In this document: in pieces, positions 47,738 through 54,496 of the stretch | Position numbering within the stretch: the stretch's first letter is position 1 | How the letters are laid out: every line of letters begins with the position of its first letter | NCBI RefSeq assembly: GCF_900106595.1 | Contig: NZ_FNNC01000006.1 | Coordinates: forward strand, 124,001-188,000 | DNA length: 64,000 nt | Reading direction: 5' to 3' | Origin: Marinococcus luteus | Lineage (GTDB): Bacteria; Bacillota; Bacilli; Bacillales; Marinococcaceae | Position numbers and translations under genes: made by a program | Notes under the pieces: model-generated | Databases searched by the model: none | Told to the model about the DNA's origin: nothing | Seen by the model: the letters and a program-made list of their open reading frames with translations, nothing else

Positions 47738-48529
47738 TCAGCTGTTCCGCTGTTTGAAACGAATAGCATCTTTTACTGTGCCAAAGGTCTGAAAAGCGGA
47801 GAAATCGAAATCCATATCTTTGGATCTTACCGCAAGGCTTGGAGAAATACCGGTTACAATCAGTTCAGTGCCAAGCAATTTTAGAAGATCATTTAAAGTG
47901 AAGATTCCTTTCATAATATCATCATTTAATGTAGAAAGACCCGAAAGGTCGACAATGAGTGTTTCTACTTTGGATTGATGAATCACGTCAGTAATATTTG
48001 TGAAAATAATCTTCAGCCGCTGCTCGTCGACGTTTCCGATCAGCGGCATCGCGTACACACTATTAATAATTGGAACGATGGGGGTGGACAAAAGATTAAT
48101 TTCATTGAAGTACTCTAAAGCATCTTTCTCTGCATCCTTTTGTTTCGTAATATCCTTTTGCACTCCGATAAAGTAATATTTATCTTCTTCCGGTTCATAT
48201 ACAGGGTCAATGTGGAGTTCGTTCCAAAACTTAGTGCCATCTTTCCGGTAGTTAATAATCTCTATTGAAATGGGTTCGTATGTTTTCAGCGCTTCTCTCA
48301 TACGGTCAATAGTATAAATGTCGCTTTCCGGTCCCTGAAGAAAACGGCAGTTGCTCCCAAGAATTTCTCCGGCGGAATAACCGGTTAAATTGCAAAAGCC
48401 GCTGTTCGTATAAATGATAGGATTGTCTTCTATATCCGGATCAGTAATGATAACTCCGACACGGGTATGATCAACGGCTGTGAGCAGTAAAGAATTAGTG
48501 GGGGTTTTTAATGGGAAATCCTGATTCAT
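47738..48529 (-). CDS. LOV-STAS blue-light photoreceptor (YtvA-like)
   Basis: A 263-residue protein. Residues about 15-125 form a LOV/PAS domain with GSNCRFLQG, the FMN-adduct cysteine being Cys61 (Cys62 in YtvA); NYRKDGTKFWNEL and YFIGVQKDIT complete it. After a linker helix, about 150-263 is a STAS domain. In B. subtilis YtvA joins the stressosome and turns on sigma B in blue light. The length is close to YtvA (261). ATG 48529 follows AAAGGAG. Confidence 0.92.
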   Translation of the reverse strand: MNQDFPLKTPTNSLLLTAVDHTRVGVIITDPDIEDNPIIYTNSGFCNLTGYSAGEILGSNCRFLQGPESDIYTIDRMREALKTYEPISIEIINYRKDGTKFWNELHIDPVYEPEEDKYYFIGVQKDITKQKDAEKDALEYFNEINLLSTPIVPIINSVYAMPLIGNVDEQRLKIIFTNITDVIHQSKVETLIVDLSGLSTLNDDIMKGIFTLNDLLKLLGTELIVTGISPSLAVRSKDMDFDFSAFQTFGTVKDAIRFKQRNS

Positions 48530-48541
48530 GAGTTCGCCCAC

Positions 48542-53230: not shown

Positions 53231-53235
53231 AAATT

Positions 53236-53269
53236 AGCAGTCTCTTAAAAGAGGCTGCTGCTTTTTTTT
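53236..53269 (+). terminator. terminator after ABC-F gene
   Basis: AGCAGTCTCTT / AGAGGCTGCT stem then eight T. Confidence 0.9.
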
Positions 53270-53345
53270 GAAGAAACAGGTTCTAAACGTTTATTCACTT
53301 GACTTTAAGGCTATAATACATACATATAATATATCTGCACATACT

Positions 53346-53359
53346 TATATTCGAATATA
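53346..53359 (+). promoter_or_regulatory. palindrome before HxlR gene
   Basis: TATATTCGAATATA is a perfect 14-bp palindrome 37 bp before the start, between AT-rich -10-like boxes. It is a natural place for an HxlR operator. Confidence 0.5.
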
Positions 53360-53395
53360 TAGTAGTGTCTTTTTTTAGATTAAAGGAGTGAAAGA

Positions 53396-53749
53396 ATGAC
53401 AATAGAAGAAAGAGAAAATATAAAAATTACGCTCGACAAAGTATGCGGAAAATGGAAAGCTGTCATTCTTATGGAGCTGGTCGGAAAAACGCTCCGTTTC
53501 AGTGAGATTAAACAGCAGCTGCAGCAGATTAATCATCAGACATTAATCAAGCAGCTCAAGGAGCTTGAACATGACGGCTTAGTATTGCGTCACGCTTACG
53601 CGGTGGTCCCGCCGAAAGTGGAATACTCTCTGACAGGCTACGGTGAGTCACTCGAGTCTCTCCTCCGGGAACTGGAAAAATGGGGAAGAGAACACAAAAT
53701 GAAAATGGAGGAAGAAGGCAAAAGCTCCTCCGGAAGCAGTGGGTGCTGA
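53396..53749 (+). CDS. HxlR-family transcriptional regulator
   Basis: A 117-residue winged-helix dimer. The conserved CGKWK holds Cys17, equal to the redox-sensing cysteine of YodB/HypR-type regulators; FSEIKQQLQQINHQTLIKQLKELEHDGLV is the recognition region. A second cysteine is the very last residue (SSGSSGC), so thiol or quinone sensing is possible. Its TGA overlaps the next gene's ATG by one base, giving tight coupling. Confidence 0.88.
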   Translation: MTIEERENIKITLDKVCGKWKAVILMELVGKTLRFSEIKQQLQQINHQTLIKQLKELEHDGLVLRHAYAVVPPKVEYSLTGYGESLESLLRELEKWGREHKMKMEEEGKSSSGSSGC

Positions 53750-54303
53750 TGAGTATGATGGAAAATGACGTATGGAAACTTGGTATTGTGGAAGCAATAG
53801 AGCCGATGGGGGAAGGATCACGTGTCTGTATAGACGCAGCAGATGTTTTGTCTCCAGCTGAAGGGCTGCTTGTCGGAGACACAGGGCACGGGTACATTTA
53901 TACGCTTTCGGAAAACCGTACGACCAGTACGTATCCAGCCCGTGTGTTTCGCATTAACGCCGGCGCTGTGCACCAGTACATTTTTGAAGAGGAAAAGACT
54001 AGATATCTCGCAGAAGTAGAGCACGATGAGCCGGTGACCGTATATGAAGGCACAGCCTCACGTCAGGTGCCGGTAGGCAGGGTGAAAATTGAAAAACGAG
54101 AGCTTGTGAGAGTAAAGGTCCGCGCAGGGGATGTGAGCCTGTCAGCTACTCTGCAGTGGGCGGACAGCGTTTATTTATTGACGGACCAATACGAGCCGAT
54201 GGCCTTAAAAGACTGCCGGCCCGGAGACCGGATCTACTGCAGAATCGATGAGCCGGGGCGTCATCTCGGTCAGGCGGTTCAAGAAGAAATAGAGGAGAGG
54301 TAA
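53749..54303 (+). CDS. stand-alone C-terminal half of archaeal-type 3-dehydroquinate synthase II
   Basis: A 184-residue protein. MGEGSRVCID (20-29), EGLLVGD (38-44), RVFRINAGAVHQY (about 65-77), KTRYLAE, VGRVKIEKREL and GDRIYCRIDEPGRHLG follow the C-terminal half of the archaeal DHQ synthase II (aminotransferase-free shikimate route). The full enzyme is roughly twice this length; the N-terminal half is missing and not found in any frame nearby. The gene is coupled to a redox-type HxlR regulator, which suggests a new role rather than shikimate synthesis. The family match is from motif recall. Confidence 0.7.
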   Translation: MSMMENDVWKLGIVEAIEPMGEGSRVCIDAADVLSPAEGLLVGDTGHGYIYTLSENRTTSTYPARVFRINAGAVHQYIFEEEKTRYLAEVEHDEPVTVYEGTASRQVPVGRVKIEKRELVRVKVRAGDVSLSATLQWADSVYLLTDQYEPMALKDCRPGDRIYCRIDEPGRHLGQAVQEEIEER

Positions 54304-54305
54304 TG

Positions 54306-54340
54306 AAAAAGCATGCTTTGTATAAAAGCGTGCTTTTTTA
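54306..54340 (+). terminator. terminator after DHQS-II-like gene
   Basis: AAGCATGCTTT / AAAGCGTGCTT stem (one wobble) then T-run. Confidence 0.85.
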
Positions 54341-54496
54341 TGAAAAAATATATATTTATAAACTGCTTTGATTGAAACAATATGGTTTAGTATAGTATCT
54401 TTTTATTTCAAGTGATTAAAAAATGAAAGGAATACGAATTACATACAAGATTAAACCCAAAGATAAAAAATGGGAGTGGAAAGAAGGGAAAATAGT

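Follow-up and report, generated by a model that had tools for sequence, protein, structure and literature searches.

In archaea, the non-classical aromatic pathway begins with DHQS II (3-dehydroquinate synthase II), an enzyme whose mechanism is, to our knowledge, poorly known. The locus considered here raises the question of what a gene for the C-terminal half of this enzyme is doing directly behind an HxlR-type regulator gene in Marinococcus luteus, and whether such a half is a working protein in its own right. The window, that is, the whole stretch of DNA analysed, comprises 64,000 nucleotides of a genome of 2.9 Mb in 15 contigs.

Gene arrangement and regulatory elements

The following features of the locus were distinguished (window positions):

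53235..53270, + strand: likely terminator of the upstream ABC-F gene, an 11-pair stem followed by a T run
53289..53314, + strand: candidate sigma-B-type promoter, GTTTAT-N14-GGCTAT, by consensus match
53342..53364, no strand assigned: candidate HxlR operator by presumed function, TACT-N15-AGTA around a 12-bp palindrome (53347-53358)
53396..53749, + strand: HxlR-family regulator of 117 aa (PF01638, E 1e-28), its stop overlapping the next start by one base
53749..54303, + strand: stand-alone DHQS II C-terminal domain protein of 184 aa, by PF01959 match
54303..54341, + strand: likely intrinsic terminator of the two-gene operon, a 17-bp hairpin (-21.1 kcal/mol, z -7.25)

The coordinates of both genes given by the first-pass annotation are confirmed, as is the one-base overlap between them: the ATG of the half gene shares one base with the TGA of the HxlR gene (53747-53749). 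Further in-frame ATGs lie 6 and 9 bases downstream of the first one, and the exact start is a predicted one. The C-terminal DHQS II motif series named earlier is also present in the 184-aa sequence, and a profile search agrees with this assignment: PF01959 (DHQS II) matches the protein with 158 bits against a gathering cut-off of 22.2 (E 3.8e-46), over profile positions 172-344 of 344 only. By this score and the invariant residues that it keeps, the protein is a DHQS II C-terminal domain. It does not qualify as a full-length equivalog, since the curated NCBIfam models of full-length DHQS II align to it via their C-terminal parts and remain far under the cut-off (best 147.8 bits vs 485).

The operon is flanked by two terminator-like hairpins, and the upstream one (53235..53270) likely sets the ABC-F gene apart from the HxlR operon. 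The 12-bp palindrome of the candidate operator is matched once in the window (0.02 expected), and its TACT/AGTA flanks, which we take to be an HxlR-type site, are kept in the other three Marinococcus sequences, where the palindrome has a central mismatch; neither the palindrome nor the TACT-AGTA motif was seen by eye in Sinobaca.

The sigma-B-like motif agrees with the sigma-B consensus at 10 of 12 positions in the three Marinococcus loci fetched, and the Sinobaca version (GTTTAT-N14-GGATAT) does so as well; the spacer of the motif varies among the Marinococcus sequences, the motif was noticed before the test, and an equally high score is reached by about 9% of 553 control ORFs. The genome does encode sigma-B (410.6 bits vs a cut-off of 315), and a sigma-B promoter is suggestive for the two lineages, Marinococcus and Sinobaca. 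As a family-wide feature it was rejected: 4 of 60 half loci (7%) have at least 10 of 12 matches, all of them HxlR-linked, while the controls give about 9%. Elsewhere in the window (47738-48541), a PAS/LOV plus STAS-like protein of photoreceptor type is recognisable by eye.

Distribution of the free-standing half

To place the protein among its relatives, we considered genomes of the same family, samples of the class and of the phylum, and a scan of named genomes. In the family, 16 of 29 genomes (own one counted) have a PF01959 match, which in none of them begins ahead of profile position 133. The class sample gave a match in 11 of 398 genomes: four full length (one of them beginning at position 31), one at a contig edge (from position 100), four halves including our own, and two weak ones (18-20 bits). 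The phylum sample gave 20 of 398, comprising our own half, one weak match (18.6 bits) and 18 matches that score 232-349 bits, their open frames being 309-392 aa long; 17 of these 18 are reported from position 1-73 to 343 or 344, and the other one, L134, covers 46-265.

The scan, which depends on either of two peptide patterns, one around N254-H259 and one around R357-G360, and is no census, returned 71 loci, i.e. 60 intact halves, two truncated ones and nine full-length archaeal proteins. Together with the window this makes a set of 61 intact halves of similar length, which leaves out the nine full-length loci and the truncated frames L095 and L116 and includes both L092 and L093, identical copies from one organism. 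The halves come mostly from Bacillaceae, their hosts being Marinococcus, Salibacterium, Alteribacillus, Aquibacillus, Gracilibacillus, Paraliobacillus, Pontibacillus, Salimicrobium, Halolactibacillus, Amphibacillus, Sinobaca, Salsuginibacillus and others; further hosts are four Paenibacillus, one Fusibacillus (Lachnospiraceae) and four MAGs labelled Bacilli, Verrucomicrobia, Mariprofundus and Micrococcales. Most of the host genera are probably halophilic or alkaliphilic, and, judging from their names, the hosts largely come from saline habitats. Ectoine synthase (ectC) was found in every one of the 29 family genomes, whether or not they hold the half, and therefore does not discriminate between them. 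In viral contigs, 50 stretches fit a peptide pattern and none encodes a relative; 13 plasmid records, all with less than 60% identity, are annotated as DHQS II or DHQS II family protein. No PADLOC defence family was found.

Phylogenetic position and selection

The tree was built, unrooted, from the 61 halves and the C-halves of 28 full-length proteins, 20 bacterial and 8 archaeal, the archaeal set containing no haloarchaeal or methanogen proteins; four loci were kept out of the 28, namely L109 (ambiguous bases), L022 (contig edge), L134 (C-half without a hit) and L135 (weak hit). All 61 halves fall on one side of a branch that separates them from the full-length proteins (support 99/92, one label change). 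The point where archaeal and bacterial full-length proteins join, and a few halves, lie on long branches that may meet falsely. The window protein has 30-40% identity to the 28 full-length proteins, and its three best BLAST matches among these are marine archaeal (38-40%); within Marinococcus its identity to loci L046-L048 is 92-96%.

The dN/dS values within Marinococcus are 0.04-0.06 for the half and 0.01-0.03 for HxlR, and the half is under purifying selection. The earlier claim of a genuine stand-alone C-terminal half, not a frameshift product, is borne out by the relatives, the tree and dN/dS: the half is a member of a conserved free-standing DHQS II C-terminal domain family. Among the titles and abstract openings listed in literature searches, none describes a stand-alone DHQS II half.

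Conserved residues and predicted structure

The 28 full-length proteins share 38 invariant positions, 32 in the C-half and six in the N-half (W6, I126, P127, E129, A133 and G162, L018 numbering). Among the 20 bacterial ones there are 89 invariant positions; the C-half has 67 of them and the N-half the other 22, which include D8, R10, E129 and E160. All 61 halves have the identical residue at 22 of the 32 C-half invariants, with R, D, E, H, K, Y, N and Q represented among them, a count that is alignment-dependent at R357 of L110 (T in another alignment, which would leave 21 of 32) and partly selected for, as the scan patterns cover part of the invariant positions. The same 22 positions are also invariant in 18 halves found by profile and not by peptide pattern. 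In addition, C211 is kept in 59 of 61 halves, and there are class-specific changes: S228 to N (51/61), T240 to N (55/61) and R at position 241 (58/61). This pattern suggests that most of the conserved site sits in the C-domain and has been retained with altered specificity. On the other hand, E129 is absent in the half, and the bacterial N-half invariants D8, R10, E129 and E160 imply that the N-half may hold part of the site; if so, the chemistry of the half must differ.

In its AF2 model (pLDDT 85.8, pTM 0.82, the last ten residues below 50) the half consists almost wholly of beta structure and forms a complete beta domain. An archaeal full-length model has a mean pLDDT of 70.6, its C-half being confident and its N-half not; compared with it, the half has the same strand order, at high confidence. 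When profiles of residues 11-102 and 103-184 were compared (L102 and L110 left out), the two repeats aligned over 48 columns with 46% probability (E 2e-4); none of 40 column-shuffled controls exceeded 3.1%, and an internal duplication is supported by these sequence profiles. Foldseek gave no match at E <= 0.001; among the best 50 matches of each model, all those with probability above 0.5 are inteins (5ol5_A, 1.00, TM 0.47/0.59; 3ifj_A, 0.96, TM 0.22/0.51). Sequence searches found neither a significant PDB relative nor a solved structure of DHQS II. A Hint-like pseudo-twofold fold of the half is at most a lead that these models offer.

The missing N-terminal half, aroB and the partner aldolase

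The half is the single PF01959 match of its genome. No N-terminal DHQS II domain was found with it, either in the same protein or in the same genome: PF01959 gave none elsewhere, and a profile of seven N-halves, which a strongly diverged N-half could escape, gave none at E <= 10 in this genome and in none of three other half-bearing genomes (0/3). As a positive control, the same profile recovered the N-half in 5 of 5 Bacillota genomes with the full enzyme (E <= 6e-52), none of which had contributed to the profile. Weak N-half matches at L026 and L027 (18-20 bits) were set aside; the longer ORFs of L026 are, by eye, a response regulator and a sensor kinase.

The check for aroB suggested in the first-pass annotation turned up an ordinary copy in the genome (352 bits vs a cut-off of 305). 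A convincing partner aldolase of the ADTH-synthase type was not found in this genome, the closest candidate being a 26% match in an ORF of 406 aa which by eye resembles a class I fructose-bisphosphate aldolase. With aroB present and this 26% match as the only aldolase candidate, an ADTH synthase does not replace the DAHP/AroB route here. Since aroB is present and the half is a genuine stand-alone protein, it likely has a function other than dehydroquinate synthesis.

The HxlR regulator

The regulator is a winged helix-turn-helix protein of the HxlR type (PF01638, 99.5 bits vs 20.8). The earlier description of it as cysteine-bearing stands as far as C17 and C117 are present; C17 is found in 6 of 6 aligned HxlR orthologues, and C117 only in the four Marinococcus proteins. 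The N-terminal cysteine, whose position we take to be that of the sensing cysteine of the YodB/HypR/QsrR type, is absent in the window HxlR and present in three HxlR paralogues of the genome. The regulator hence lacks the conserved N-terminal sensing cysteine of that type, and the proposed thiol- or quinone-type sensing, with C17 as the only conserved cysteine, is conjectural.

The coupling of HxlR to the half does not hold as a general rule. Besides the window, 4 of the 62 loci fetched, three from Marinococcus and one from Sinobaca, have HxlR directly upstream of the half, and at L029 an HxlR gene upstream is separated from the half by about 760 bases. Close orthologues of the window HxlR, with at least 54% identity, occur in 12 of 29 family genomes, own one counted, eight of them with the half and four without it (G007, G008, G009, G011), while 8 of the 16 half-bearing family genomes have no close HxlR orthologue. 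Among the loci examined, the HxlR-half link is lineage-specific, adjacency being confined to Marinococcus and Sinobaca.

Gene neighbourhoods in other genomes

Across the 62 loci, the half has no constant neighbour or operon partner that would name a substrate. In 32 of 62 loci trpE is located within seven genes downstream on the same strand; the 30 trp-linked loci present in the tree all belong to one clade of 34 rows (support 80/86), and the others are without this link. Tandem T-box leaders, two per locus, lie between the half and trpE in all four trp-linked loci scanned:

L057:8629-9159: T-box leader pair
L068:9159-9670: T-box leader pair
L070:8674-9181: T-box leader pair
L098:8647-9124: T-box leader pair

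Therefore, the half and trpE are probably under separate control.

Redox-type neighbours of the half do occur (SodC, AhpC/TSA-like, OsmC, a zinc-type oxidoreductase and, by eye, catalase), but they vary by genus. Other neighbours are TerC, a sugar-diacid regulator (L064), a PRD/PTS regulator (L083, with the same cluster at L086) and a histidine kinase (L075).

Several single arrangements were also observed. In the Micrococcales MAG, a gene for a TIR-domain protein follows the half directly, with a gap of 0 (L110:7600-9366), and Fusibacillus has a fused FeoA-FeoB gene upstream of the half match, at a distance of 85 bases (L102:5468-8501). In Bacillus sp. FJAT-44742 (L028:4378-10479, also L058), a lactate racemase (lar) operon with a KdgT-type permease is placed about 415-450 bases upstream of the half and a hydroxyethylthiazole-kinase-like gene (by eye) 42 bases downstream; the lar link is seen in this organism only. 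As for the full-length enzyme, at the Bacillota loci L018-L021 its gene stands beside an aldolase-like gene in four of four cases, and L018, L020 and L021 also have an adenylating-enzyme-like gene, resembling aminohydroxybenzoate-type cassettes (all names by eye).

Possible functions of the half

We suggest, at about even chances, that the protein is a free-standing DHQS II C-terminal domain which is not a dehydroquinate synthase and which probably either converts a related metabolite as an enzyme or binds it as a ligand. Most of the DHQS II substrate site would lie in the C-terminal domain, and this domain, when free, would still bind, and probably transform, a related small polyhydroxy-keto or amino-keto metabolite, acting without the N-terminal domain that the full enzyme presumably needs for oxidative deamination and cyclisation to dehydroquinate. 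In Marinococcus and Sinobaca the half would be made from the HxlR operon, which may be autoregulated and may also belong to the general stress (sigma-B) response, and elsewhere it would mostly stand alone under other control.

The free domain may instead be purely ligand-binding or regulatory, sensing or buffering a metabolite together with neighbouring regulators and without catalysis, which we consider possible though doubtful. Regulators or signal proteins do adjoin the half in several unrelated settings (HxlR, L064, L083/L086, L075, L110), and the conserved residues could serve binding alone; however, most of the 62 loci are without a regulator partner, and 22 of 32 invariants, with several acids, bases and histidines kept in 61 of 61 halves, would be more than binding usually needs. 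It is unlikely that the half is an accessory protein of the tryptophan or aromatic pathway: the position of trpE downstream in about half of the loci speaks for it, and in H. salinarum the DHQS II gene region adjoins trpA (PMC4162585), but the trp link is confined to one clade and T-box leaders intervene between the half and trpE.

The half's boundary coincides with the domain boundary, as would be expected of a subunit of a split DHQS II whose N-domain is encoded elsewhere. Such a working dehydroquinate synthase is nevertheless highly improbable, given the failure to find an N-half in our own and three other half-bearing genomes with all five controls positive, the presence of aroB and the lack of a convincing substrate-making aldolase. 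Least credible is that an archaeal DHQS II gained by horizontal transfer is decaying here, or that the half arose from an error of sequencing or assembly; its conservation in many genera refutes this. The hosts, largely from saline habitats judging by their names, and the three best matches among the 28 full-length proteins, marine archaeal at 38-40%, would suit such an origin, whereas 61 intact halves of similar length group together, keep their invariants and show a dN/dS of 0.04-0.06 within Marinococcus. A frameshift, truncation or decayed fragment was rejected on the same grounds (60 further intact halves, the 99/92 branch and dN/dS).

Returning to the enzyme reading, we would go one step further, more speculatively still, and propose that the half alone is a minimal ring-forming or keto-sugar-handling catalyst with which bacteria of saline habitats clear away or modify a side product. 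The side product may be, for example, a derivative of aspartate semialdehyde, which is also an ectoine precursor. If this were true, much of the catalytic core of DHQS II would sit in its C-terminal half. In any case, proteins like the half should not be annotated as 3-dehydroquinate synthase.

Other roles of the DHQS II family have already been hinted at, since the M. maripaludis homologue MMP0006 is reportedly dispensable for aromatic amino acids (PMC4162585).

Comparison with known systems

Among characterised regulators, the window HxlR resembles RrpA/RrpB in matching NF047364 (1.8e-23) and NF047367 (3.5e-20), but its scores are far under the cut-offs (82.8 vs 175 and 72.2 vs 185 bits) and the N-terminal cysteine is absent. 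The half may resemble the Hint fold of inteins, to judge by its structural matches and its internal duplication; the E-values are 0.02-0.06 only, no sequence kinship was found, and the alignments of the two models are partly shared.

The 3,4-AHBA synthases BagC/FevH and GriH are alike in that NF041224 matches the half (E 1.9e-21, 76.3 bits vs a cut-off of 750). They differ in being full-length, and the half has no GriI-like partner beside it, while GriH works together with GriI (PMC8697445).

The archaeal DHQS II of the MJ1249/OE1475F type differs from the half in having the N-terminal domain, while the half has its own signature residues, a separate group in the tree and a host with aroB. The two are alike in the C-terminal domain, with 22 of 32 C-half invariants in all 61 halves, a likeness that rests on 28 full-length proteins to which MJ1249 and OE1475F do not belong. 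With most of the invariants kept in one naturally occurring domain, the half offers a small protein for mapping the DHQS II active site.
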